A DNA stretch of 64,000 nucleotides from Clostridiales bacterium. Its GTDB lineage: Bacteria; Bacillota; Desulfotomaculia; Desulfotomaculales; VENG01. Both the position numbers and the translations under genes were made by a program. Where the stretch lies: NCBI GenBank assembly GCA_016278505.1, contig JADQBQ010000028.1, positions 1 to 64,000 on the forward strand, given 5' to 3'. This document shows, piece after piece, positions 42,147-54,500 of this stretch (positions are counted from its first letter, which is position 1; every line of letters begins with the position of its first letter). The notes under the pieces were generated by a model, which saw only the letters and a list, made by a program, of their open reading frames with translations, did not search any database and was not told where the DNA came from.

Positions 42147-43640
42147 ATGATAATCCTAGGCAGAAGAGGGTTACGGTTTCAAATATTGTTACTTTTAACA
42201 TTCATTTTAATAGTACCGGTGCTGGTAATGTTATACGACCTCTTTTTTGCTAGTAAAAGCGACGAGGTGGTACTAGAAAATCGAGAAAGATATTTAAGCG
42301 AAATAATGAATGAAATGGCATCCGGGTTAGAGTACAATGAAGATGAAACACCGCGGCAACTAGTGAATTCATTCACTCAAGAGGCCGGCTATTTGGTCAG
42401 GGAAAATAAAGGTGTTCGCCTGGGCATTTATATAGTAGAGAATGAAAAAATGTATATAGAGGGATTTTTACATGAATATCGAAAACTGACTAAACAAGAG
42501 CAAATAGAACGAGAAAGACGCATATCCGGAGAAGTGTCAGCCGGGATTCAATCCGTACTGGCTACCGGTGAGAAAATTGTCAGAGTAGGGCGTACCTGGG
42601 ACGATGAAATATTGGAGTGTTTGCGCCCGGTCAGAGTAAAGGGAAAAATCGTGGCGGTGGTATGGGCGGAGCAGATGATGCATCCTATCTTCGCTAAAAG
42701 CTATAATTTTAGAATGGTTACACGTTATACCACTCTGGTTATCTTTTGTTTTAGTTTATTTTGTGTTGTAGCCGTGGTGCTTAACCTTACGCGGAATATA
42801 AATACAATCAAGGAAGGTTTAGAAAGCCTGGAAGCGGACATAGATTTTCGGTTGGAGCCCCTTCCGGGGGAGATGGGCCAAATAACCACGGCTATTAATA
42901 ATATGGGTGAGGGCTTAGCTGAAAGAGAACAATTAAAAGAAAAACTCAGGCAAAATGATTTCCTGGCTGCGCTGGGTAGGCTGGTGACTGGAATAGCACA
43001 TGAACTACGCAATCCGCTGGGAGTATTAATGGCTACGGTAGAGGTGATGGAAGAAGATTTACAAAACTGTGACGGCATCAAGGATTATGCAGAACGTATC
43101 AAAAAGCAGGTGGACCGTCAAAGTAAGACTGTAAATGGATTATTAGATTTCGGGCGGCCTGATGACGGTATGCTGGAAAAACTGGACTTAAATGAATTGC
43201 TGCTTAATGTTATGGATTTCGCACAACCATTATTGCAAAAGAGTAATGTGGATATATCTACTCATTTGGAGCAAAGCCTTCCCCATGTAGTCGGCAGTGC
43301 AGAAAAATTGCAGCAGGTCTTTTTAAACCTCATTATAAATGCAATTCAGGCCATGCCTTCCGGTGGGTCTATAATCATTACTTCCGGCAGTACCGGAGAA
43401 GAAGTGTTTGCTACTGTAAATGATACGGGTAAAGGAATCCCTGAAAACGATTTAGAGCATATATTTGAACCATTTTACACCACTAAAGATGGTGGAAGCG
43501 GCTTGGGCCTGTCCATAAGTAATCAGGTGGTCAGAATTCACGGAGGGCGGATTATTGCTCGCAGTACCCCCGGTAAAGGGACAGAAATGACGGTATGCCT
43601 ACCATTTTTAATGAAAGGAGAAATAAAGCATGAAGCCTAA
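42147..43640 (+). CDS. Membrane histidine kinase, island sensor 1
   Basis: 497-aa sensor kinase. Helix 1 (about 10-31, LLLLTFILIVPVLVMLYDLFF), an extracytoplasmic domain (32-192), helix 2 (193-215) and HAMP (216-262) lead to the kinase core GIAHELRNPLGVLMATVEV (His about 284), N-box NLIINAIQAMPSGG and GSGLGLSIS. The sensor domain is paralogous to that of the kinase at 63.4 kb (GVRLGIYI...IEGFLHEYRKLT). AAGGGAG precedes the ATG. It overlaps its receiver partner by 11 bp. Confidence 0.92.
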   Translation: MIILGRRGLRFQILLLLTFILIVPVLVMLYDLFFASKSDEVVLENRERYLSEIMNEMASGLEYNEDETPRQLVNSFTQEAGYLVRENKGVRLGIYIVENEKMYIEGFLHEYRKLTKQEQIERERRISGEVSAGIQSVLATGEKIVRVGRTWDDEILECLRPVRVKGKIVAVVWAEQMMHPIFAKSYNFRMVTRYTTLVIFCFSLFCVVAVVLNLTRNINTIKEGLESLEADIDFRLEPLPGEMGQITTAINNMGEGLAEREQLKEKLRQNDFLAALGRLVTGIAHELRNPLGVLMATVEVMEEDLQNCDGIKDYAERIKKQVDRQSKTVNGLLDFGRPDDGMLEKLDLNELLLNVMDFAQPLLQKSNVDISTHLEQSLPHVVGSAEKLQQVFLNLIINAIQAMPSGGSIIITSGSTGEEVFATVNDTGKGIPENDLEHIFEPFYTTKDGGSGLGLSISNQVVRIHGGRIIARSTPGKGTEMTVCLPFLMKGEIKHEA

Positions 43641-44007
43641 TATTTTGATTATTGATGACGAGCCTGAAATGTGTTGGGCTGTTGCCAAGGCCATGGAGAT
43701 GGAAGGCTTCACGGCTATTACTGCCAACGGAGGCCAAGAAGGTCTGAAGATATTCTCAAGCGAAAAAATTTCAGTAGTTTTAGTAGATCTGAAAATGCCG
43801 GATATGGACGGGATAGAAGTAATTAAAGAGTTAAGGCATGTCGATCCTGAAGTGCCCGTGGTATTGATCACAGGACACGGAAGCATGGATGTGGCCCACG
43901 AGGCACTGTCGGAAGATGCAACCGGCTATATCATTAAGCCGTTTCGTATGGCAGCTCTTAGAGCAACAGTGAAAAAAATGATTAATGAGTTAGAGCTGCA
44001 AGATTGA
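43630..44007 (+). CDS. Receiver-only response regulator
   Basis: 125-aa CheY-like protein with the acidic pocket IIDDEPE, phospho-acceptor VLVDLKMPDMDG (Asp about 53), switch Thr in VVLITGHGS and Lys in YIIKPF. No output domain. It overlaps the kinase gene, so the two form a pair. Output must be through protein contact, a phosphorelay or competition, not direct DNA binding. Confidence 0.93.
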   Translation: MKPNILIIDDEPEMCWAVAKAMEMEGFTAITANGGQEGLKIFSSEKISVVLVDLKMPDMDGIEVIKELRHVDPEVPVVLITGHGSMDVAHEALSEDATGYIIKPFRMAALRATVKKMINELELQD

Positions 44008-44062
44008 CGGAAGTTTGTAATGTTTTAAATATTCTGGATTCAGCGAGGTCTTAATAATTTAC

Positions 44063-44229: not shown

Positions 44230-44475
44230 TTGGATGTAAAGGGAATTTCCAATATAACTAACCGGGAAAAAAAATTAATACTTTTCCTGCGTCAAATGGG
44301 TTGGGGTGAGGTGAGGATTAGAGTTGAAAATGGGCAGCCGGTGGTAATTTACGAAGCGATTAGGACAGTCCGCTTGGAGGAAAAATCCAATGGCAACAAA
44401 AAAAATTCAAAAGACCGGGTTGTAAAACCACTGGAGGAAATAGCGGAAAACACCTTTGGTGAAAATATTAATTAG
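44230..44475 (+). CDS. YezD-like (DUF2292) small protein, copy 1
   Basis: 81 aa with the core FLRQMGWGEVRIRVENGQPVVIYEAIRTVRLEE, matching the YezD/DUF2292 small-protein family, whose Bacillus member lies in a sulfur-metabolism operon. The tail is lysine- and glutamate-rich. TTG 44230 has AGAGGTGA 5 nt upstream; a GTG at 44221 overlaps that site. Two further copies follow within 1.5 kb. The function is unknown; the fold may bind nucleic acid or a partner protein. Confidence 0.75.
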   Translation: MDVKGISNITNREKKLILFLRQMGWGEVRIRVENGQPVVIYEAIRTVRLEEKSNGNKKNSKDRVVKPLEEIAENTFGENIN

Positions 44476-44549
44476 CCGAATCGAACAACGAAAGGCTGTT
44501 ATACTGTTTAATTTATCAAGCAATTAATCGGTATAACAGCCTTTTTTTT
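44474..44549 (+). promoter_or_regulatory. AATC-box leader element E1
   Basis: AGCCGAATCGAACAACGAAAGG, here given as box AATCGAACAACGA, followed by stem AGGCTGTTATAC/GTATAACAGCCT and T8. It starts on the stop codon of the YezD-like gene and ends about 50 nt before USP copy 2. Confidence 0.7.
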
Positions 44550-44597
44550 AATAGACAGTAATGAAAGATTAAAACTTTGGGAGGTGCGAAAGGGATA

Positions 44598-45047
44598 ATG
44601 AATAAAATTCTAATCCCCATAGATGGCTCGGAGTATTCCATGCGTGCGGTTAAATTTGCTGCGGAGTTCATTGCCTTAAAACCGGAAGTTAAAGTAGTGG
44701 TTTTTTCTGTGGATAGGTTGCCACAACAATTCATGGTTAGGGATTTGTACTGGGTGTCCTCTGACATCGGAGAAAGTGTAAGACACATTCAGGAGGTATT
44801 TGCCGAAGTGCGTGAGGCCAATTTTAAAAAAGCGGCTGCTTATTTTAACCAAAAAGGGCTAAATGTGCAATGTGACTATACTTTTGGTAATCCCGCCGAA
44901 GAAATTACCCACTACGCCGGTAAAAATGGTGTTGACATGATTATAATGGGTACCCGTGGTTTGAGTTCTCTGAAGGAAGTATTCCTGGGTAGTGTCAGCC
45001 ATAAGGTGCTCCAGCTGTCCACATGTCCTGTGCTGTTGGTTAAATAA
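44598..45047 (+). CDS. Universal stress protein, copy 2
   Basis: 149-aa UspA-fold protein (ILIPIDGSEYSMRAVKFAAEF). The ATP-binding signature GTRGLSSLKEVFLGSVS is intact. It shares FMVRDLYWVSSDIGES and GNPAEEITHYAGKNGVD with copy 1, so the two are paralogues from one duplication. The ATG follows GGAGGTG and AAAGGG. It is preceded by leader element E1, suggesting attenuated expression. Confidence 0.9.
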   Translation: MNKILIPIDGSEYSMRAVKFAAEFIALKPEVKVVVFSVDRLPQQFMVRDLYWVSSDIGESVRHIQEVFAEVREANFKKAAAYFNQKGLNVQCDYTFGNPAEEITHYAGKNGVDMIIMGTRGLSSLKEVFLGSVSHKVLQLSTCPVLLVK

Positions 45048-45062
45048 AAAGCAAAAAAACTA

Positions 45063-45091
45063 TTGACATGATTGCAGAGGTTTGCTAATTT
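45063..45091 (+). promoter_or_regulatory. Island-type promoter 2
   Basis: TTGACA, 17-nt spacer ending TTTGC, TAATTT; predicted start near 45098, 45 nt before leader E2. Confidence 0.7.
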
Positions 45092-45142
45092 ATAGATGAC
45101 AAATAATTGTGAAGTCAATCACTAATAAGACTAAAAATGTAT

Positions 45143-45210
45143 GGCTGAATCGAACAACGATAGGCCGCTATTGCTTCGAGGTTGAAAGCAATGGCGGCCT
45201 ATTGTGTTTT
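45143..45210 (+). promoter_or_regulatory. AATC-box leader element E2
   Basis: Box AATCGAACAACGATAGGCCG followed by a long stem (AGGCCGCTATTGCTT with AAGCAATGGCGGCCT) and a T-rich tail. It lies in the 5' leader of YezD-like copy 2. Confidence 0.75.
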
Positions 45211-45236
45211 AAACTAGAGCAAAGGAGAGAAGAGAC

Positions 45237-45437
45237 ATGTCAACTATAGATTTGAGTAACAGGGAAAAACAGCTGTTGGCGTTCCTCCGGCAACTTAGAT
45301 CAGGAGAAGTTAAAATTAGAATAGAAAATGGCCAGCCGGTAGTTATTTACGAAGCTATTAACTCACGGGCACTGGAAGATTACCCCTCGGAGCAAGATGA
45401 CTTTGACAAAGAAAGCCGGGGCCAAGCAAAGTCTTAA
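45237..45437 (+). CDS. YezD-like small protein, copy 2
   Basis: 66 aa: NREKQLLAFLRQLRSGEVKIRIENGQPVVIYEA then an acidic tail. The core is nearly identical in layout to copies 1 and 3, and closer here to the Bacillus form (LRSGEV). AAAGGAGAG precedes the ATG. It is preceded by island-type promoter 2 and leader E2, so it is probably a separate unit. Confidence 0.75.
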   Translation: MSTIDLSNREKQLLAFLRQLRSGEVKIRIENGQPVVIYEAINSRALEDYPSEQDDFDKESRGQAKS

Positions 45438-45448
45438 GGTTAAACTTG

Positions 45449-45520
45449 GCCGGCATACTATACCGTAATACCTGACATGCGGGGAAGGTTCCGGGCTGAG
45501 GTGTGTCGGCTGTTTTTTTT
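45449..45520 (+). terminator. Structured terminator between YezD-like copies 2 and 3
   Basis: GCCGGCATAC pairs with GTGTGTCGGC (three G-U) across a 42-nt loop, followed by T8. Confidence 0.55.
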
Positions 45521-45534
45521 AAAAATAAATAATT

Positions 45535-45592
45535 AGGCTGAATCGATTAAAGATAAGCCGGTACCTATATTTAGGTATCGGCTTATGGTTTA
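45535..45592 (+). promoter_or_regulatory. AATC-box leader element E3
   Basis: Variant box AATCGATTAAAGATAAGCCG then AAGCCGGTACCT/AGGTATCGGCTT stem. It lies 47 nt before YezD-like copy 3. The downstream T-run is weak. Confidence 0.65.
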
Positions 45593-45638
45593 GGTGCATT
45601 TATTAATACTTAAAAACTTTTATAGAGGGGGAATTTCA

Positions 45639-45854
45639 GTGCATCTCGCGGATATGACACCTCAGGAGGAAAAACTGATAAAATTTTTGCGACAGGTTGG
45701 ATGGGGGGAGGTGAGGTTGCGTGTAAGTGAAGGGCAGCCGGTATTGATCTACGAGGCAATACGCACGCACCGCTTGGAAAAGGCTGAGCAAAATAAGCAG
45801 AAGAAAAGAAATTCCGGGCAAAAGGAAAGAACGAGAGTTTGGCGGGCTCAATAA
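45639..45854 (+). CDS. YezD-like small protein, copy 3
   Basis: 71 aa: KLIKFLRQVGWGEVRLRVSEGQPVLIYEAIRTHRLEK with a basic tail (NKQKKRNSGQKERTRV). The GTG at 45639 follows GAGGGGG; a longer frame from 45594 overlaps the leader hairpin. The basic tail differs from the acidic tails of the other copies, suggesting divergence in partner or nucleic-acid binding. Confidence 0.72.
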   Translation: MHLADMTPQEEKLIKFLRQVGWGEVRLRVSEGQPVLIYEAIRTHRLEKAEQNKQKKRNSGQKERTRVWRAQ

Positions 45855-45900
45855 GTCTGCTCACCGCCGCTGCATTGGCTTCTAAACTTCATAACCTTTA

Positions 45901-45962
45901 GGGCTAAATCGATTAACGATAAGCCGTCGTCCTACTTCAGGGGTGACGGCTTTAAATTTTTA
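45901..45962 (+). promoter_or_regulatory. AATC-box leader element E4
   Basis: Box AATCGATTAACGATAAGCCG then a CGTC-loop-GACG-type stem (AAGCCGTC.../...GACGGCTT) and T-rich tail. It lies about 90 nt before the SLC13 transporter. Confidence 0.68.
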
Positions 45963-46053
45963 TAAAAAGGGGGTGATATGGAAGGCCTAGTTATAGAAAG
46001 GACTCATTCTACAATTGATAAGGAAAGAAAGTATTATTATAGGGGGTGTCCAC

Positions 46054-47679
46054 ATGAGTGATTTACAAAACACAACTGCTGTGCCGGAATTGTCAGCAGG
46101 ATCAGGTCTCAGTGAACTATCCAAATGGTCCTGGTGGGTAGGTGTACCCGGGCAGCGGCCGCTTCTAATTCTGGCATTATTCATTTTCTTTACTACAATG
46201 GTGTTGATGCCGGTACCGGGTAGCATGCTTTCTTTAATGACGGAGCAGGATCCGTTGGGAGCATCGCTCAAATCAGGAACTCACACATTCGTGGATTCTT
46301 ATAACAAGTTAATGGGTTCAAGCCTTACCGCAACGGAAGTGGCGCAACAGGCAAAGGTATGTGTGGCCCTGCTTTTTACAGCTGCACTTTGCTGGGGAAC
46401 TGAAGCTATTCCCCTGGGAGCCACCAATATTCTGGTAGGTGTCATTCTGTATTTGTTCACCATATTGCCAATTAACGATATAGGTAAAGCGTACTTGAAA
46501 GATGCAGTATGGTTCATTGCCGGTGTGCTGGCGGTGGCCGGGGGCGTATCGTTGACGGGCCTGGACCGGCGGATTGGTTACCTTCTCTTAGGGCGCATAA
46601 AGGGTCTGGGAGGATTCGTTTCAGTATTTTTTGTAACGCTGGCGATAGCAGCCGGTTTTTTCTCGGAGCACGCGTTGGTAGCCTTATTATGCCCGGTTCT
46701 GCTGCTGGTGTATAAGGCAGGGTGCAAAAAAATGGACGTCAAACACAGTAAGCATCTGGCTGTCCTGCTTTTCCTGGGTATATGTTTTGCCGCTAATGTA
46801 GGCGGTTCAGGTTCTCCCGCCGTGGGCGGACGTTCTGCGATAATGGTAGGCTATTTCAGCGGTTATAACATGCCCATCAGTTTCGGGCAATGGATGATGT
46901 ACGGTCTGCCCATTGTACCTATTCTGGCATTGGCCATGGGTGCGTACCTCTTTTTTATAGTACGGCGCAAAATCCCTATAAATATTAACATTTCCGAAAT
47001 CATGAAGGAAAATGTAGAAGGAATTGGTCCCATGCGTGGTAAGGAATTACGTATGGCCGTACTTTTTGGACTGCTTGTGGTGCTGTGGGTGTTTTTCAGT
47101 GACTCTTATGGGCTGGGTGGAACTACAGCAATAGTGTGCTTGCTGATGCTTCTTTCCCGGATCATGACGTGGAAGGAAATGCAAAACAGGGTGCCCATTG
47201 ATGTGGTGCTGCTCTATGCCGGGGCATGCGCCATGGGAGTGGCGCTGAAAAGTACCGGTGGCGCGCTGTGGGTGGCCCGCTCCTTCCTGGATCTGCTGCC
47301 CCAGGCTATCACCGAGGGAGGTGCCATTGTAATTGCGGTGAGCTTATTCACCACACTTATTACTAACTTCATGAGTGACGGGGCAGCTGTGGGAGCAATT
47401 GGACCGGTGGTTCTGCCCATGGCGGCTATGGCCGGGGTTCACCTCTGGAAAGTGGGTTTGGCCTGCGCCTTCAGTTCCTCCTATGCCCATGCCATGGTGG
47501 TCGGTACCGTAAATAATGCTATTGCTTATAGTATGGCCAGAGATCCTGAAACAGGGGACCCGCTGTTGTCCGTTACGGACTTTATAGTCTACGGCTTCCC
47601 GGCCATTATTATCTCACTGGCAGTTCTGTGGGGGGTAGCATTCTTCGGATACTGGAATTTCCTGCCCTGGCCTTCTTAA
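46054..47679 (+). CDS. SLC13 (DASS)-type anion transporter 1
   Basis: 541-aa polytopic membrane protein of the divalent anion:Na symporter superfamily. CWGTEAIPLGATNILVGVILYLF and the repeated Asn/Ser loops FAANVGGSGSPAVGGRSA and FMSDGAAVGAIGPV mark the two substrate-binding hairpins. About twelve helices. Substrates in the family are sulfate, thiosulfate and dicarboxylates; sulfate uptake is likely beside sat-apr-qmo. The ATG has GGGGGTG upstream and leader E4. Ends at a strong terminator. Confidence 0.87.
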   Translation: MSDLQNTTAVPELSAGSGLSELSKWSWWVGVPGQRPLLILALFIFFTTMVLMPVPGSMLSLMTEQDPLGASLKSGTHTFVDSYNKLMGSSLTATEVAQQAKVCVALLFTAALCWGTEAIPLGATNILVGVILYLFTILPINDIGKAYLKDAVWFIAGVLAVAGGVSLTGLDRRIGYLLLGRIKGLGGFVSVFFVTLAIAAGFFSEHALVALLCPVLLLVYKAGCKKMDVKHSKHLAVLLFLGICFAANVGGSGSPAVGGRSAIMVGYFSGYNMPISFGQWMMYGLPIVPILALAMGAYLFFIVRRKIPININISEIMKENVEGIGPMRGKELRMAVLFGLLVVLWVFFSDSYGLGGTTAIVCLLMLLSRIMTWKEMQNRVPIDVVLLYAGACAMGVALKSTGGALWVARSFLDLLPQAITEGGAIVIAVSLFTTLITNFMSDGAAVGAIGPVVLPMAAMAGVHLWKVGLACAFSSSYAHAMVVGTVNNAIAYSMARDPETGDPLLSVTDFIVYGFPAIIISLAVLWGVAFFGYWNFLPWPS

Positions 47680-47685
47680 GCACTC

Positions 47686-47719
47686 AAAATAAAGGCCCCA
47701 TCAAGGGGCCTTTATTTTT
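47686..47719 (+). terminator. Terminator of SLC13 transporter 1
   Basis: AAAATAAAGGCCCC/GGGGCCTTTATTTT, 14 bp, perfect. Confidence 0.92.
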
Positions 47720-47731
47720 CTTCCCAAAGGG

Positions 47732-47760
47732 TTGACATTATTGCCTATTTCTGATCTAAC
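47732..47760 (+). promoter_or_regulatory. Island-type promoter 3
   Basis: TTGACATTATTGC, identical over 13 nt to the promoter at 48953, with TCTAAC at 17-nt spacing. The -10 is weaker than in the others. Confidence 0.5.
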
Positions 47761-47792
47761 TACACTACATATAATTAAAGGGGGGGGGTAGG

Positions 47793-48956
47793 ATGTTGCT
47801 CAAAGCCGGTATAAATGATGTTTGGAAAATTATCTGGTTGGTAGTGTTATTGGCAGCAACTCTTTTGCATGCCCAGCCGTGTCATGCAGAGGCACAATTA
47901 ACCAAATATGACATTACCATCCCGGCGGGCGAATCTCATGAAGGTCCCTTTTTTGCTGCCGGGAAAGAAATAATCATTGACGGAAAGATAAAAGGTGATT
48001 TGTATGCAGTTGGTACCAATGTGGTTGTTAATGGCACTGTTAACGGTGACCTGCTGGTGGTTAGCGCTACTCTTAAAGTGAACGGGATTGTTAACGGTGA
48101 CGTGAGAAGTTTGAGTGCAACGGCAAATATAAACGGGCAGGTTGACGGCAATGTAAGCTATGTTGGCAGGCAATTGGTTCTGACTCCCAGTGGAATAATT
48201 AATAAAAGTATGCTGTTAGTCACTATGCAGGGAGAAGTAAATGGCTCGGTACAAAACAAAGTATGCGGGTGGGGCTCAAATATCAAGTTAGGGGGTAATC
48301 TTGGCGGAGGGGTCACTTTATATAAGGTTGGAAGCCTGGCAATTGAGCAGAAAGCCAAGATTAACGGGCCGGTTCGGTATACCGGTGCAAACAGCGCCGA
48401 CGTGTCACCCGGAGCTGCCTTATCAGGTAAACTCCACTGGGAGCGTAAAGAGGCTGAAGGTGGCTCACTGTTCATGACCTTGCTTTGGTTTTTGGCAGGA
48501 GTCCTGGTTTGGTATTCTTTTAACTTCATCTTTCCGGGTTTTTGGAGTACTTTGATCTCACCGGCACTAAACAAGCCTCTGGCTGCAGTGCTATGGGGAA
48601 CAACCATATTTTTGGTTACCCCTGTTTTGGTTCTCGCACTCTTATTTACCTTGCTGGGGATCCCTATGGCCTTAATAATTTCAGGTTTTTATGTTAGTAC
48701 GTTATATTTGGGTAAAATTATTGCCGGCCAATCTTTGGGGAGTTTGTTTGCCAAGCGTTTCGGATGGGAAAGTAGGTTTAAACCTTTTACGTGGTTTTTA
48801 CTGGGTTACGGTGTAGTGGTGCTAGTGGGTAGTTTACCTTACTTAAACTCCTTTGTCAGTATAATTTCAGTGTGCTGGGCCATGGGGGTTATTTGCTGGG
48901 CCGCTGTGCTTAACAGGCGCAAAATCATCCATGATAGCAGGTGGAAAATATGTTGA
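47793..48956 (+). CDS. Exported bactofilin-like beta-helix with membrane tail
   Basis: 387 aa. A signal peptide (about 10-33, ending near CHAEA) precedes a repetitive domain (about 45-215) of bactofilin/polymer-forming type, e.g. IIIDGKIKGDLYAVGTNVVV and NGTVNGDLLVV. Four or five membrane helices follow (about 228-375). Bactofilins normally lack signal and membrane parts, so this is an envelope-anchored variant with the beta-helix outside. Its stop codon lies inside island-type promoter 4. The role is unknown; perhaps scaffolding. Confidence 0.72.
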   Translation: MLLKAGINDVWKIIWLVVLLAATLLHAQPCHAEAQLTKYDITIPAGESHEGPFFAAGKEIIIDGKIKGDLYAVGTNVVVNGTVNGDLLVVSATLKVNGIVNGDVRSLSATANINGQVDGNVSYVGRQLVLTPSGIINKSMLLVTMQGEVNGSVQNKVCGWGSNIKLGGNLGGGVTLYKVGSLAIEQKAKINGPVRYTGANSADVSPGAALSGKLHWERKEAEGGSLFMTLLWFLAGVLVWYSFNFIFPGFWSTLISPALNKPLAAVLWGTTIFLVTPVLVLALLFTLLGIPMALIISGFYVSTLYLGKIIAGQSLGSLFAKRFGWESRFKPFTWFLLGYGVVVLVGSLPYLNSFVSIISVCWAMGVICWAAVLNRRKIIHDSRWKIC

Positions 48957-48981
48957 CATTATTGCACCGCTTTGCTACCTT
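48953..48981 (+). promoter_or_regulatory. Island-type promoter 4
   Basis: TTGACA, 17-nt spacer ending TTTGC, TACCTT. The TTGACA overlaps the TGA of the preceding gene. Confidence 0.68.
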
Positions 48982-49008
48982 TGATATGAAAAGAGATCCA
49001 ATATGATC

Positions 49009-49087
49009 GGCGCCGAATCAAACAATGATAGGCCGCTGTTTCTTCTGCGTGTTTGATATCATGCAGGGAAGTAGCGGCCATTTTTTG
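49009..49087 (+). promoter_or_regulatory. AATC-box leader element E5
   Basis: Box AATCAAACAATGATAGGCCG: the G-C closing pair of the other copies is replaced by A-U on both sides, a compensatory change. Stem AGGCCGCT.../...AGCGGCC, then T6. Confidence 0.75.
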
Positions 49088-49124
49088 TCAACCGGAACCT
49101 TCGGGACGGTGGGGGGGGGCTGAA

Positions 49125-49568
49125 CTGATACGTAAAGCAGTGATATGTTTGCTGGTGGTATTTATTGTCCTTATGGCCGGATACAAGGCCAAAATAGATT
49201 GGTTTGATACGTACAAAGAAAAGCAAACTGTAAATTTGTGGTTGTTATTAATGCAGGAGGGGAAGTTGGAAAGGGCACAGCAATTAGTAGATGAGAAGGA
49301 CTGTCGCAGTAATGGGTTTAAAAGCTTTAGTAAGCTTGAATCTTATGCTAAAAATGGTTATTTTGCCGGCGCCTCAATTTCCAAAATGTACCTCAATGAC
49401 CGTGGCCAGCCGGTGGCCAGGATTGAATTACCCGGCAATCCCCAAATCGATAAACTGTTATTAAGAGTGGACAACATCAATAATAAGTTTCAAATTGTTG
49501 AAATAGACTTTATTACGAGGGGGTCCGGGCCGGTGAACAAAATACTAGACTGGTTTTCCAGTAGATGA
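49125..49568 (+). CDS. Unknown single-helix membrane protein
   Basis: About 147 aa: one N-terminal helix (KAVICLLVVFIVLMAGY) and a polar domain of about 120 residues with no family I recognise. The start is problematic. The open frame upstream runs through leader E5, and the only codon near a ribosome site is CTG 49125, five nt after a run of nine G. One extra G would put a GTG (49109) in frame. It is followed 11 bp later by a 41-residue membrane peptide gene. Confidence 0.55.
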   Translation: MIRKAVICLLVVFIVLMAGYKAKIDWFDTYKEKQTVNLWLLLMQEGKLERAQQLVDEKDCRSNGFKSFSKLESYAKNGYFAGASISKMYLNDRGQPVARIELPGNPQIDKLLLRVDNINNKFQIVEIDFITRGSGPVNKILDWFSSR

Positions 49569-49579
49569 AGGGAGGGTGC

Positions 49580-49705
49580 ATGGTGAGACAACGCACGCGC
49601 AAAGGGAAGGAGGAACACCCATTTATTAAAAGGTTGAGGCGAGTAGTTCTCTGTGTGACTATTGTGCTTATACTACTGTTTTTTTACGAAGCATATTTCG
49701 GGTAA
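49580..49705 (+). CDS. 41-residue membrane peptide
   Basis: MVRQRTRKGKEEHPFIKRLR is followed by a single helix (VVLCVTIVLILLFFY) and ends EAYFG. The basic N-terminus predicts a cytoplasmic N-end. GGGAGGG sits 3 nt before the ATG, and the gene starts 11 bp after the preceding membrane-protein gene, so both look co-translated. No family recognised. The clear ribosome site and bipartite charge pattern support it as real. Confidence 0.6.
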   Translation: MVRQRTRKGKEEHPFIKRLRRVVLCVTIVLILLFFYEAYFG

Positions 49706-49744
49706 TCATAAATGGGGTTAGTGAATAAAAAAATAAAAAAACTA

Positions 49745-49773
49745 TTGACTTTATTACCGGGGTTTGCTAGATT
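49745..49773 (+). promoter_or_regulatory. Island-type promoter 5
   Basis: TTGACT, 17-nt spacer ending TTTGC, TAGATT; predicted start near 49780. Confidence 0.68.
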
Positions 49774-49848
49774 AAAGCAACTAAAAAAACAATATTGGTT
49801 GAATTATACAGGTATTATTGTGAATTCAAATACAATACCTGGACAAAT

Positions 49849-49926
49849 AGGCTGAATCGAAAAACGATAGGCCGTTATTATCTTCGACGTGTGTTACGTG
49901 CGAGGAAATAGCGGCCTTTTTTATTT
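49849..49926 (+). promoter_or_regulatory. AATC-box leader element E6
   Basis: Box AATCGAAAAACGATAGGCCG then a long stem closing AGGCCGTTATT/AATAGCGGCCT, then T6. About 110 nt before CBS copy 3. The rest of the 330-bp gap holds the promoter above and no gene. Confidence 0.75.
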
Positions 49927-50037
49927 GCCAAAAGTGTCTTTGGGACCAATGGAAGAAAGGAGGGATAAGGGTAATATTGGGGGGCTTGCTTATTTTTCCA
50001 AAGGTTGGTTACGGTTGTTAAAGGAGGTATGATCCGA

Positions 50038-50541
50038 ATGGCAAAGGAAAAGCGTGTACGAGATATAATGGGCTTTTCACAAATGGTTGAGATGGGCCAT
50101 GAAAGTACTGTCAAAGAAGTGGTGGCTGCTGCACTACCCGCGTTGAAAGCCGGTTACAATCCTACTATAGTAGTAAAAGAACGGGATAATATAATTGGCG
50201 TGCTGTGTTGGAATGATTTACTAAATGTACTGCTGCCGCCTTATACTAAGGGCGAAATCAAAGTGGAAATATTCTGGGAAGGTCTGCTTTTGGATCAATG
50301 GCGCACCATTGCTGATCTCAATGTGAAAGATGCTATGCGGTCGCCGGTATTTGTGGATATCGATGATACACTGGCCAAAGTGGCTTACACACTGATTGAA
50401 AGTAAAATGTCTTCAGTTTTGGTAACTGACCGGGGGAAAATGGTTGGAATGATTGGTGCCGGCGACTTGTTTAACGAGTTATATGAATGTCCTGCTTCAG
50501 AATTTAACGTCAATCACGGTAGTCTCCCATTAGCAAAGTAA
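50038..50541 (+). CDS. CBS-pair protein, FWxG family, copy 3
   Basis: 167 aa: AKEKRVRDIMGFSQMVEMGHE, linker EIFWEGLLLDQW, second CBS NVKDAMRSPVFVDIDDTLAKV. ATG 50038 follows AAAGGAGG by about 9 nt; earlier in-frame starts lie within or before that site. It stands between two AATC-box leader units and has its own promoter, so it is transcribed alone. Closest to copy 2. Confidence 0.83.
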   Translation: MAKEKRVRDIMGFSQMVEMGHESTVKEVVAAALPALKAGYNPTIVVKERDNIIGVLCWNDLLNVLLPPYTKGEIKVEIFWEGLLLDQWRTIADLNVKDAMRSPVFVDIDDTLAKVAYTLIESKMSSVLVTDRGKMVGMIGAGDLFNELYECPASEFNVNHGSLPLAK

Positions 50542-50585
50542 AATGAACTGCTCACATCACTATTAAATAGTATAAAAAATAATTG

Positions 50586-50614
50586 TTGACAAAATCACGC
50601 ACTTTTAGTAACTT
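50586..50614 (+). promoter_or_regulatory. Island-type promoter 6
   Basis: TTGACA, 17-nt spacer, TAACTT; predicted start near 50621, 32 nt before leader E7. Confidence 0.65.
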
Positions 50615-50652
50615 ACAATTAACTTAATACCTTAGAAACTCAGTAGCTTTGC

Positions 50653-50714
50653 AGGCTGAATCGAACAACGATAGGCCGACATCTACTCCCGCGGGAGAGA
50701 TGTCGGCCTTTTTG
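50653..50714 (+). promoter_or_regulatory. AATC-box leader element E7
   Basis: Box AATCGAACAACGATAGGCCG then the perfect stem AGGCCGACATCT/AGATGTCGGCCT with T5: a textbook intrinsic terminator inside the TSUP leader. The upstream AGGCTG could compete with AGGCCG for the same 3' strand. Confidence 0.8.
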
Positions 50715-50745
50715 CGTTACTTTTTAAGACAAATGAATATTTATT

Positions 50746-50857
50746 GAGCCGAATTGATTATCTAATAGGCCGATGTACATAAAACCGGTGTGCATCCCTT
50801 GGAGACGGGTTTCCGTAAGTGGATCCCATAAATTCGGCTCAAAGGGTGACACCGGTT
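50746..50857 (+). ncRNA. Pseudoknotted leader element E8 (riboswitch-like)
   Basis: A perfect 10-bp outer stem GAGCCGAATT (50746-50755) with AATTCGGCTC (50831-50840) encloses a variant box (ATTGATTATCTAATAGG) and nested helices, including ACGG-GTTT-CCGT. AACCGGTGT inside the loop (50783-50791) pairs with ACACCGGTT (50849-50857) outside it, giving a 9-bp pseudoknot. It lies between terminator E7 and the TSUP start. The pairings are seen; ligand binding is a guess. Confidence 0.6.
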
Positions 50858-50971
50858 AACTATGTCTAAGGGGGGTGAGACCTTACAGAGTTTGTATACT
50901 CCGTTAATGACTAACAAATAAGAAAAAATGAATAAATTAGTTAATTGAACCGAAGAAGGAGGAGGATTCCA

Positions 50972-52255
50972 GTGCGAAAGCTATACGAGATGTTTATGGA
51001 AGCATCTGTTGCACACGCCCGTTGGGATTACGAAACATCTCTCAGCATCCTTAAGAATCGTAGGAAACTGCTGATATTACTAATCATGGCGCTTCCAGTA
51101 ATTGCAGTTCCGGTTTATAGCTATGCGGCTGGCCTGCCGGAGCTTTTGGGGGGTAAACATGCGTACGGTCCCGCATTTTACGATCCCACTATATTTTTTG
51201 TCTCCATTGCCATAGGACTGTGTGCAGGGTTGATTACCGGATGTATTGGAGCCGGGGGAGGGTTTATTATTACACCTGCCCTGATGAGCGCGGGAATCAG
51301 AGGTATATTGGCAGTGGGCACCGACTTGTTCCATATTTTTGCCAAGGCGATAATGGGTACTACTGTGCATAAGAAAATGGGTAATGTTTCGGTGGGATTA
51401 GCTATTGCCTTTGTTGTTGGCTCACTTATTGGTGTTTCCGGTGGGGGCGTTTTAAACAGGGCATTATATGAGAGCAACCCGGTTTTAAGTGATATTTTTA
51501 TTAGTATTGTATACGTTGTTTTACTCGGGTTTCTCGGTTCCTATGCCCTTAATGATTTTCTTAAGGAACGGAAGAAGGATAAAATGATAGACCCGGCGGC
51601 AGAAGCAGAGACGGCAGCAACGGCTGTTGCCGGAGGCAGATTACCCGGGCTTCCCGGTAAGTTGCAGGCTGTAAATATTCCACCTAGCATTAAATTTGAC
51701 GAAAATGTTGTTGAGGGTGGTCGTAAAATACCGGCTATATTTGTTGCAGGATGTGGAAGTATTGTGGGTTTTGTTGCTGCCATCATGGGTGTCGGCGGAG
51801 GGTTCTTAACTTTCCCCATGTTCGTTTACGGTCTGGGCGTATCCTCATTCACTGCGGTAGGTACTGATATTTTCCAAATTATTTTGACGGCAGGCTACGC
51901 TTCCATTTCCCAGTATGCTATTTACGGTTATATATTCTATACTCTGGCCATTGGTATGCTTCTGGGTTCACTGCTGGGCATCCAGGTGGGCGCACTGACA
52001 ACCAAAGTTGTTAAGGGAGTCTATATCAGAGGATTTTATGCCGTAGCGATTCTTGCAGGTTTCATTAACCGCTTATTTGTATTACCAGCTAAGTTATCCA
52101 GTATGGGCGTAATCAGCATTAGTCCGGGGTTGGGCAAGGCGCTGACTGCGATAGGAAACTGGCTCTTCTTCTTAATAGTTGGGATGTTTGCAGTGTGGGT
52201 TATCAGCACATTTTTAAGAAATCTGCCCAAGTTAAGGGGGGAGACTGAATTATGA
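50972..52255 (+). CDS. TSUP family anion transporter with long N-terminus
   Basis: 427-aa TSUP protein. A cytoplasmic N-terminus (about 1-33) and one helix precede the two TSUP repeats (GCIGAGGGFIITPALMSAG near 90; GVGGGFLTFPMFVYGLG near 275). A charged central loop (about 195-245) joins them. GTG 50972 has GAAGGAGGAGG upstream. Its leader carries E7 and the pseudoknotted E8, the most elaborate control region in the island. It overlaps the next gene by ATGA. Sulfite, sulfate or another sulfur anion is the expected substrate. Confidence 0.87.
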   Translation: MRKLYEMFMEASVAHARWDYETSLSILKNRRKLLILLIMALPVIAVPVYSYAAGLPELLGGKHAYGPAFYDPTIFFVSIAIGLCAGLITGCIGAGGGFIITPALMSAGIRGILAVGTDLFHIFAKAIMGTTVHKKMGNVSVGLAIAFVVGSLIGVSGGGVLNRALYESNPVLSDIFISIVYVVLLGFLGSYALNDFLKERKKDKMIDPAAEAETAATAVAGGRLPGLPGKLQAVNIPPSIKFDENVVEGGRKIPAIFVAGCGSIVGFVAAIMGVGGGFLTFPMFVYGLGVSSFTAVGTDIFQIILTAGYASISQYAIYGYIFYTLAIGMLLGSLLGIQVGALTTKVVKGVYIRGFYAVAILAGFINRLFVLPAKLSSMGVISISPGLGKALTAIGNWLFFLIVGMFAVWVISTFLRNLPKLRGETEL

Positions 52256-52959
52256 TAGCTGATCGCAAAAGTTTTATGATGGGAATAGTTTTAAGCGTAT
52301 CGTTCATCCTGGCGCTGGTAGGGATTTACTCACCGGTCTTTGATGGTCTAAACGGATTACAATATGCTGACAGGTTCTTTAATTCAGTAGCTAAAGGTTC
52401 TACTTACTATATCCCGGAGGTACAACAGCAGGCAGCCGATTATAAAGGAGAGTCAATTGAAGCAACAATAAACTTGGAGACCGTAGATGACGCCAAAAAG
52501 ACGGCTGTGTTGTTTGAAGAAAATGGCGCAACAGTAAGTACCAGCGGTACAGAGGTTCATATCAAAGGTGGATTCGGTGCCATGATAAGTGCATCTCTTA
52601 ATGATGCAGATATGATGTTTAATAATGAAGGAGATGCTCTTACAGATAAGTACGGGTACCAGAAAAAAAATGTTATGTATCACTGGTGGCTGGGACTGAG
52701 TGCTCTGAATGATGCGTTAACGCAGCAGAAGGCATTTTCCCAAGCAGCATTTGTGAACCATGTTGTCCAGAAAGCAATAGAGCCGGCGTATAACTTTTAT
52801 GGTATCGAGCCTGAAAGTGCCTCAGAACATGCTCCAAAGCTCACCTTTATGCTGGTCTTCTATATTGTGTATACCATCTGGTGGGGCTTTGCCATTTACT
52901 ATCTATTTGAGGGCTTAGGTCTACGCATGAGCGGCGGGCATAAAAAAGCAGAAGCATAA
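52252..52959 (+). CDS. TSUP-associated membrane protein, unknown
   Basis: 235 aa with helix 1 near 10-30, a large extracytoplasmic domain (about 31-195) and helix 2 near 197-222, then a short basic tail. Translationally coupled to the TSUP gene through an ATGA overlap, so it is probably a subunit or accessory of that transporter. No family recognised. Confidence 0.7.
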   Translation: MIADRKSFMMGIVLSVSFILALVGIYSPVFDGLNGLQYADRFFNSVAKGSTYYIPEVQQQAADYKGESIEATINLETVDDAKKTAVLFEENGATVSTSGTEVHIKGGFGAMISASLNDADMMFNNEGDALTDKYGYQKKNVMYHWWLGLSALNDALTQQKAFSQAAFVNHVVQKAIEPAYNFYGIEPESASEHAPKLTFMLVFYIVYTIWWGFAIYYLFEGLGLRMSGGHKKAEA

Positions 52960-52990
52960 TAGACAAAGTTGGATTGTGTTTTATTCCATA

Positions 52991-53022
52991 TTGCCGGGGA
53001 AAGTTTATCCTGTCCCCGGCAA
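52991..53022 (+). terminator. Hairpin after TSUP operon
   Basis: TTGCCGGGGA/TCCCCGGCAA, 10 bp, no T-run. Confidence 0.5.
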
Positions 53023-53134
53023 CGGGTGGAATGATTAGGAACCCTGTTCCAGGTAATTTAAAGGCGGTCAACCATGATTAGATATGCATTTGATTAAGCT
53101 CCTGGAATGGCGGTTAAAAAAGGAGCTGGTTTTT

Positions 53135-53608
53135 TTGGCGGATGAGCTGCGTGTCAAAAATGTCATGGAATACCCGGCAATTCTATGGTGCGCCCCCGAA
53201 AGCAGCCTGGATACTATATTAAAGAGGCTGGTTGTGATGGAAGATATGGGTAAAGATCTGGATATTGTAGTGGTAAAAGACGATGAACGGATTGTAGGAA
53301 TCATGAATGCCATGGACATATTCAACGCTTTACAGCCTTCGTTCTCACATCTTGCCAAAGGCTACGGTACTTATGAAGTATTTTGGAGCGGGCTATTTAC
53401 ATCGCGGTGTAAACGCCTGGGGACAAAAAAAGTAAAACAATTTATGCAGCCGCCGGTTGGGTTAAGTCCGGATGATACCTTAATGAAAGCAGTCAATTTT
53501 TTAGTTGAGCACCAGGAAAATATTGCGCCGGTCATAAGTGATGAAGATGTAGTGGGGTTGGTGCGAAGTAAAACCTTAATGCGTTTAATTTCATTTTCTG
53601 TAGCATGA
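53135..53608 (+). CDS. CBS-pair protein, FWxG family, copy 4
   Basis: 157 aa: ADELRVKNVMEYPAILWCAPE, linker EVFWSGLFTSRCKRLGTKKVKQFMQPP and second CBS domain DDTLMKAVNFLVEHQ. TTG 53135 has AAGGAG 9 nt upstream and gives the same N-terminal length as the other copies; ATG 53084 has no site. It follows the TSUP operon. Its linker is closest to copies 1 and 5 (FWSG, KK after the linker). Confidence 0.8.
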   Translation: MADELRVKNVMEYPAILWCAPESSLDTILKRLVVMEDMGKDLDIVVVKDDERIVGIMNAMDIFNALQPSFSHLAKGYGTYEVFWSGLFTSRCKRLGTKKVKQFMQPPVGLSPDDTLMKAVNFLVEHQENIAPVISDEDVVGLVRSKTLMRLISFSVA

Positions 53609-53625
53609 GCATGGCGTAATGATAT

Positions 53626-54291
53626 TTATGTAAGAGTGCGTATTAATCCCTGTGTGATAAATTCAGCAACATTAGTGACATTGTATAGACGAGTGGTATG
53701 GAGTTTTTGAAAGTCATTTACAATGCCGGTAATGGAAATATCCCCTACTGCGGGAAGCTTTTTATGCACTGCATTACCTGGATTCAATGTTCCATTATTA
53801 AGCCATACTTTTCCGATATCGGATTTAGTATAACTCAAAGAAGCATCAATAGCTATAACAAGAGCATTATGGTGTGTTTGCCTGATTTCTTTCAGGCAGT
53901 TTTCCAGGTTAAGTGCATGTACCGGATTTTGTAGTGTACCATAAACTATGTAGTCCCCGGATTTGTTATTCACCAATGAGCTACCTATCAGAGGGCCCAG
54001 GCAGTCACCTGTGCAACGGTCACTACCGATACACAGAATGATTTTTGTTCTATCATAGTGAGGATCTTTTTGGCACATGTATTTGTGTAGAATATGCTCG
54101 AATTTGTCCATGGCATAGGTGTCTTTAAGGCTAACATACAAACCGTCATTCTCAATCGTGTCTCGGGCAGCGGTTGTTGCCGCACCTGAACAATCACTAT
54201 GCCGCAAGGAAAAACTGGTAAAAGAAATAGCCGGTACTTTAATAGCAGCATAGAAGATAATTAAGCCTATCAGTATAAATGCTACCACCAT
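53626..54291 (-). CDS. YyaC-like spore protease with membrane anchor
   Basis: 221 aa. One N-terminal helix (VVAFILIGLIIFYAAIKV) precedes a GPR-like peptidase domain with CIGSDRCTGDCLGPLIGSSL and VIAIDASL, the YyaC sporulation-protein signature. YyaC relatives are usually about 200 aa; the N-terminal helix is an addition. ATG 54291 has AAGGGGTAGG upstream; ATG 54309 has none. It marks the host as a spore former. Upstream on the same strand lies leader-like element E9. Confidence 0.82.
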   Translation of the reverse strand: MVVAFILIGLIIFYAAIKVPAISFTSFSLRHSDCSGAATTAARDTIENDGLYVSLKDTYAMDKFEHILHKYMCQKDPHYDRTKIILCIGSDRCTGDCLGPLIGSSLVNNKSGDYIVYGTLQNPVHALNLENCLKEIRQTHHNALVIAIDASLSYTKSDIGKVWLNNGTLNPGNAVHKKLPAVGDISITGIVNDFQKLHTTRLYNVTNVAEFITQGLIRTLT

Positions 54292-54431
54292 TTTCCTACC
54301 CCTTTTCATTTTACTTATTTACTTGCCAAACGTTTTTTCGGGCTTTATTCACTCGCCCTCATTTATGTATTGTTGGCGCTTTTCTGCATCTAAGTGGTGA
54401 TAAATCCATCTGTATTCCACCTAATGAATAC

Positions 54432-54500
54432 AAAAAAAGACCGAATTTGAAACCTCATTACAAGTGAGGAAACCCGACCTATCATTGTTAGATTCGGCTT
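54432..54500 (-). promoter_or_regulatory. AATC-box leader element E9 (minus strand)
   Basis: Reading on the minus strand: AAGCCGAATC, box AATCTAACAATGATAGG, a CCTCA/TGAGG hairpin, then AATTCGG able to pair with the initial CCGAAT, and T7. It shares the outer-stem layout of E8. It lies upstream of the YyaC-like gene. The surrounding 490-bp gap has no gene. Confidence 0.6.

Follow-up and report, generated by a model that had tools for sequence, protein, structure and literature searches.

A conserved hairpin competing with transcription terminators in Desulfotomaculales, and a DUF2292-like protein as its possible reader

What reads the nine related leaders that lie within a 64,000-nucleotide stretch of a Clostridiales bacterium genome (contig JADQBQ010000028.1, positions 1 to 64,000; the window)? 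The original prediction, made from the letters of the window, described a shared box, a small hairpin and a stronger second hairpin upstream of transporter, stress and other genes, and proposed that a trans-acting factor or ligand controls premature termination across a regulon. Our analysis supports, on good grounds, a regulon of several operons in which a conserved antiterminator hairpin competes with a terminator. The best explanation of the whole is probably an attenuator read by a DUF2292-like antiterminator protein, with input from a histidine kinase and a response regulator.

A hairpin that excludes the terminator

All nine elements (e1 to e9) are found where they were predicted, within 1-2 nt. 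The 17-nt box, allowing up to 3 mismatches, has 7 matches in the window compared to 0.12 expected, and no shuffle reached 7. Across the 3.9-Mb genome, a covariance model of the nine copies gives nine strong matches (31-42 bits), every one within the window; the one further match outside it, at 20 bits, is at chance level. The anatomy required revision: the small hairpin is present, but it is the upper part of a single antiterminator hairpin that competes with the terminator. Extending the box four bases 5' reveals an outer stem around it, GGCY/RGCC, that the earlier reader had not noticed and whose 3' strand is common with the terminator. The resulting 25-nt core, [R/G]GCY-GA-AUCG-AACAA-CGAU-A-RGCC-G, comprises a 4-bp outer stem, a GA/A internal loop, a 4-bp inner stem and a loop near AACAA. 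Positions 6, 7 and 21 do not vary among 52 distinct sequences, nearly all of which have the loop A-A-C-A-A.

Both stems covary. The compensatory change noted at 49009 is real (AUCG/CGAU to AUCA/UGAU), the nine-copy alignment already holds both-side changes in four pairs, and folding of the window copies shows that the downstream stem varies in sequence while its pairing is kept. Alignment A7 holds 99 copies, 52 of them distinct, and was fitted to the proposed structure, which favours that structure; here 94.0% of cells are paired, both sides change in 6 of 8 pairs, and the covariation score is matched by none of 500 shuffles, with slid controls far lower. The raw copies include AUCG/CGAU, AUGG/CCAU and AUUG/CAAU in the inner stem and AGCC/GGCU, GGCU/AGCC, GACC/GGUC and AACU/AGUU in the outer stem, and wherever position 22 is A, outer position 4 is U (five of five sequences). 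Because the outer 5' strand has no role in the terminator, covariation of the outer stem supports the antiterminator itself.

The 3' strand of the outer stem is the start of the downstream hairpin's 5' arm in 95 of the 97 copies with enough downstream sequence, so that one structure excludes the other. A T-rich tail (four or more T among the following 8 nt) is present in 92 copies (94.8%, against 16.7% in shuffled downstream sequence), and the two exceptions, L055:6487 and L060:8162, have a separate downstream hairpin with a T-run. The calculated stability of the terminator (median -22.7 kcal/mol) far exceeds that of the antiterminator (-8.4 kcal/mol); the antiterminator therefore needs help, and unaided transcription should stop. 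Within the window, the predicted T-runs are clear in six of the nine elements (e1, e4, e5, e6, e7 and e9), weak in e2 and absent from e3 and e8, which may act differently or be degenerate. In the e8 region (50745-50842), GAGCCGAATT at 50745 is complementary to AATTCGGCTC at about 50832, and ACCGGTGT to ACACCGGT, possibly forming a different long-range structure before the TSUP gene.

No Rfam family matches the element. Scanning the window with Rfam 15 returned only tRNAs above the gathering threshold, and a permissive scan of the element region gave only weak matches to unrelated families, all below gathering scores. Neither a known family nor a set of copies at gene 3' ends lacking covariation emerged; instead, covariation is clear and copies in related genomes stand upstream of the same gene types. 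The predicted regulon of premature termination under a trans-acting factor thus gains support from the Rfam result, from covariation across the 52 distinct copies, from the position in leaders with terminators, and from the recurrence of the same gene types downstream in 33 genomes of the order.

Distribution, targets and promoters

Our genome set comprised 113 genomes of the order; a class-wide search returned the same 113, as order and class coincide. A refined covariance model (R2) finds about 100 copies in 33 of them, and a sample of 398 genomes of the phylum adds only G186, at a contig edge, and, weakly, G174. Named contigs with exact matches include Desulfofundulus, Desulfoscipio, Desulforamulus, Desulfotruncus, Desulfovirgula, Desulforudis, Ammonifex and Pelotomaculum; no viral contig matched the box exactly. 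Weak matches in G014, G037 and G071 disappeared under the refined model. Exact box matches in Xenorhabdus, every one in near-identical context with no terminator following, were discarded as chance because they apparently lie inside an IS1-like transposase coding sequence (L094, L114, L115, L117-L119, L123, L129).

The downstream genes of the window are of the predicted types: universal stress protein (USP), SLC13 (PF00939), CBS (PF00571), TauE/TSUP (PF01925), YyaC-like DUF1256 (PF06866) and DUF2292/YezD-like, the last with a Pfam match below the cut-off. Across genomes, they are DUF2292-like genes (19), TSUP (12), a 146-aa family (10) and a small membrane protein preceding TSUP (8), and also SLC13, histidine kinase, USP, a formate transporter with NuoEFG-like genes, CBS and response regulator genes. 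As for the signal, these targets hint at anion or organic-acid uptake and at the energy or stress state. The conserved 146-aa family, for which Pfam gives no match, is frequently targeted in Desulfoscipio-type genomes, in many cases lying divergently beside DUF2292 (L057, L066, L068, L073, L074, L081). In Pelotomaculum-type genomes (L079, L080, L086-L089), the motif stands before a formate/nitrite transporter; next come an OB-fold protein and NuoE/F/G-like genes, which are likely to encode electron-transfer subunits of a formate dehydrogenase or hydrogenase.

A TTGACA-N12-TTTGNTA promoter lies at most 300 nt upstream of 33 of 98 copies (0.97 expected), often 46-90 nt from the motif, a spacing consistent with short untranslated leaders. 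The window promoters at 44062, 45066, 48954, 49744 and 50587 (the last slightly off) have in common TTGACA-NN-ATT-N(7)-TTTGCTA, beyond what sigma-A needs, a pattern also seen before SLC13 in G046 (L131, about 6857); a second signal for regulation may lie in the spacer's ATT.

A DUF2292-like protein as the candidate reader

A profile of the DUF2292-like subfamily (A4) matches 35 of the 113 genomes, including all 33 with the motif and only 2 of the 80 others, namely G046 and G107; the proteins of G107 are generic DUF2292 and score about 54 bits at most. This co-occurrence has a Fisher p of 1.7e-26 with kinship ignored, and when motif labels were shuffled within genera, none of 1,000,000 shuffles reached the observed concordance; motif and protein vary concordantly in seven genera, plus one partially. 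Six Pelotomaculum-type genomes from two genera carry a single motif before the formate transporter and a DUF2292 gene elsewhere with no motif of its own, and, generic DUF2292 in G107 aside, they are the only genomes of 25 in the family with either. The unlinked, motif-less gene in these genomes argues that DUF2292 is more than a frequent target.

The protein is about 70 aa and basic (median pI 9.6). Pfam DUF2292 (PF10055) matches 25 of 38 members at E<=1, with a best value of 7.8e-5, and the two members for which scores were tabulated reach 12.6 and 14.6 bits, short of the 22-bit cut-off; conversely, generic DUF2292-like proteins match profile A4 at 1e-6 to 1e-14. AlphaFold models a helix-strand-strand (alpha-beta-beta) arrangement with a disordered charged tail. 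A sequence search of solved structures returned nothing significant, and among the papers searched we found none on a function of YezD/DUF2292. For a small basic protein with such a model and no informative structural match, RNA binding is plausible.

A kinase orthologue (at least 660 bits) is present in 23 genomes, 22 of them with the motif, and is missing from 11 of the 33 motif genomes, including all of the Pelotomaculum type. These absences rule out the histidine kinase as the factor that reads the RNA and make it an associated input. The response regulator is a bare receiver with no added basic domain; its gene adjoins DUF2292 on the same strand in most response regulator loci, and lies 6-67 nt from it in several genomes whose kinase gene is elsewhere.

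We propose that each element is a transcription attenuator whose default structure would be the terminator. The DUF2292/YezD-like protein would bind and stabilise the hairpin through the AACAA loop and the invariant A6 and A21, blocking the terminator and turning on transporters, USP and CBS proteins and often the DUF2292 gene itself. In most species, the neighbouring membrane histidine kinase and receiver-only regulator may, with less confidence, set the activity of DUF2292. Overall, this would be a two-component antitermination system with a separate protein as its RNA-binding output. We consider it likely that the DUF2292-like protein is the antiterminator, and regard control by the kinase and regulator, where present, as an evenly balanced proposition; the combined claim, that DUF2292/YezD-like proteins form a new family of RNA-binding antiterminators reading the 25-nt hairpin under such control, is tentative and falls a little short of even.

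Several observations weigh against this proposal. Motif and DUF2292 share one island in most genomes, and part of the co-occurrence could come from joint gain or loss; only chosen protein families were examined. G046 (89% complete) has three DUF2292-like genes, the kinase and the regulator with no canonical motif, G186 (84% complete) has one contig-edge motif and no DUF2292-like match, and generic DUF2292 proteins occur elsewhere without the motif. AlphaFold confidence is moderate (pLDDT about 80 for the core and 63 for the whole model), and comparing the model with PDB folds matched no solved RNA-binding fold (best E 0.83). As side observations, leaders in G046 (L131 5760-5830 and 6610-6690) carry other strong hairpins, GACC-GGGACAATGACT-GGTC overlapping a terminator, perhaps a diverged recognition element. 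The generic DUF2292 genes of G107 (L138 7223-8099) adjoin sequences that resemble, by eye, cobalamin-riboswitch leaders.

Because the families tested were chosen and the shared island is so common, some other, unlinked protein could be the factor, with DUF2292 co-occurring through the same regulon or island; we think this improbable, as DUF2292 stays concordant in the Pelotomaculum-type genomes, where it is unlinked and has no preceding motif. The receiver-only regulator might itself bind the hairpin, leaving DUF2292 as target or accessory. Regulator and kinase genes do lie beside motif copies in most motif genomes, and regulators that bind RNA have a precedent in the ANTAR response regulators (PMC3369931), but the regulator has only its receiver domain with no basic domain added, and the kinase orthologue, the partner surveyed across the genomes, is missing from 11 motif genomes, the Pelotomaculum type among them; we find this reading unlikely. 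The conserved loop and internal loop, leader position and transporter targets would also suit a riboswitch binding a metabolite or ion directly, with DUF2292 a frequent regulon member; yet at 25 nt, of which 5 form the loop, the element is very small, the targets are diverse, and DUF2292 is present even where it is unlinked and not a target, so we rate this quite unlikely.

An ANTAR-type or BglG/LicT-type antiterminator would follow the same logic of a small hairpin set against a terminator, and ANTAR proteins are common in the order. However, neither CAT_RBD proteins nor the histidine kinase track the motif: CAT_RBD (PF03123) occurs in 2 of the 113 genomes, neither with the motif. ANTAR proteins occur in 99 of the 113 genomes compared to 33 with the motif, a spread too wide to single out the motif genomes. 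ANTAR targets, moreover, consist of two hairpins whose hexaloops carry A1 and G4 (PMC3369931), whereas here there is one hairpin with the loop AACAA; this explanation is very unlikely. The idea with the least to recommend it, to the point of being far-fetched, is that these are ordinary terminators carrying a dispersed repeat (a mobile element) with no regulation: copies are clustered and some fall between cistrons, but both stems show compensatory changes, promoters lie shortly upstream, and across many genera the copies precede the same kinds of gene in sense orientation.

If a DUF2292-like antiterminator does read the hairpin, the uncharacterised DUF2292 family (Bacillus YezD) gains a concrete, testable role as an RNA-binding regulator, and the widespread generic family might act on RNA too. 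An RNA element absent from Rfam is added, which in Gram-positive sulfate reducers and syntrophs may jointly switch anion and organic-acid transporters and the genes of stress and energy sensing.

Features of the window and relation to known systems

Table 1. Elements, candidate regulators and target genes in the window.
Feature	Position	Strand	Basis or score
e1 antiterminator hairpin, upstream of USP, overlapping a DUF2292-like stop codon; outer AGCC/GGCU, first inner pair an A.A mismatch	44474..44498	+	38.2 bits, model R1
e1 terminator hairpin and T8, also using the outer-stem 3' strand	44492..44549	+	fold, sequence
e2 antiterminator hairpin, before the second DUF2292-like gene	45143..45167	+	41.9 bits
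e2 promoter TTGACA-N12-TTTGCTA, about 80 nt upstream of e2		+	
e2 terminator-like hairpin, weak U-tract (TATTGTGTTTT)	45161..45210	+	fold
e3 hairpin, before the third DUF2292-like gene; lacks a T-run, has a G.A mismatch in the inner stem and GGCU/AGCC as outer stem	45536..45560	+	37.5 bits, fold
e4 hairpin, before SLC13; outer stem GGCU/AGCC, loop AUUAA	45902..45926	+	37.7 bits
e4 terminator hairpin and T-rich tail	45921..45962	+	fold
e5 hairpin, compensatory inner pair AUCA/UGAU	49011..49035	+	37.9 bits
e5 terminator hairpin and T6	49030..49087	+	fold
e6 hairpin, before the CBS-domain gene, preceded at about 105 nt by a promoter	49850..49874	+	40.2 bits
e6 terminator hairpin and T6	49869..49924	+	fold
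e7 hairpin, leading copy of the tandem pair that precedes the TSUP gene	50654..50678	+	41.9 bits
e7 terminator hairpin and T5	50673..50714	+	fold
e8 diverged second tandem copy (AUUG-AUUAUC-UAAU), then a hairpin with no T-run	50747..50772	+	31.2 bits
e9 hairpin, before the YyaC-like DUF1256 gene; U.U mismatch in the inner stem	54475..54499	-	34.8 bits
e9 terminator hairpin and T7	54432..54480	-	fold
DUF2292/YezD-like protein 1, 81 aa, proposed RNA-binding antiterminator	44230..44475	+	profile A4, 105 bits; co-occurrence
DUF2292-like protein 2, 66 aa, diverged, without the conserved W	45237..45437	+	profile A4
DUF2292-like protein 3, 71 aa	45639..45854	+	profile A4
Membrane histidine kinase (HisKA and HATPase_c), conserved neighbour	42147..43640	+	
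Receiver-only response regulator of 125 aa, lacking an output domain	43630..44007	+	adjoins DUF2292 in most loci
Target: universal stress protein	44598..45047	+	
Target: SLC13 transporter	46054..47679	+	
Target: CBS-domain protein	50038..50541	+	
Target: TauE/TSUP transporter	50972..52255	+	
Target: YyaC-like DUF1256 protein	53626..54291	-	

The ribonucleic antiterminator (RAT) of the BglG/SacY/LicT systems is a short hairpin with internal loops; it overlaps a terminator, and a protein stabilises it. Our element resembles it in overlapping the 5' arm of the terminator (95 of 97 copies), but differs in sequence; CAT_RBD is found in no motif genome, and the proposed protein is DUF2292-like and only about 70 aa. 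With the ANTAR systems (EutV/EutW and NasR) it has in common an antitermination regulon and a response regulator, and, for EutV, also a histidine kinase; in contrast, there is a single hairpin with the loop AACAA in most of the 52 distinct copies, and the response regulator has no ANTAR domain. The proposed protein is itself probably homologous to DUF2292 (PF10055) and Bacillus YezD, but unlike generic DUF2292 it belongs to a longer, distinct subfamily marked by WGEV..VENGQPV.IYEAI.T.KL and a charged tail.

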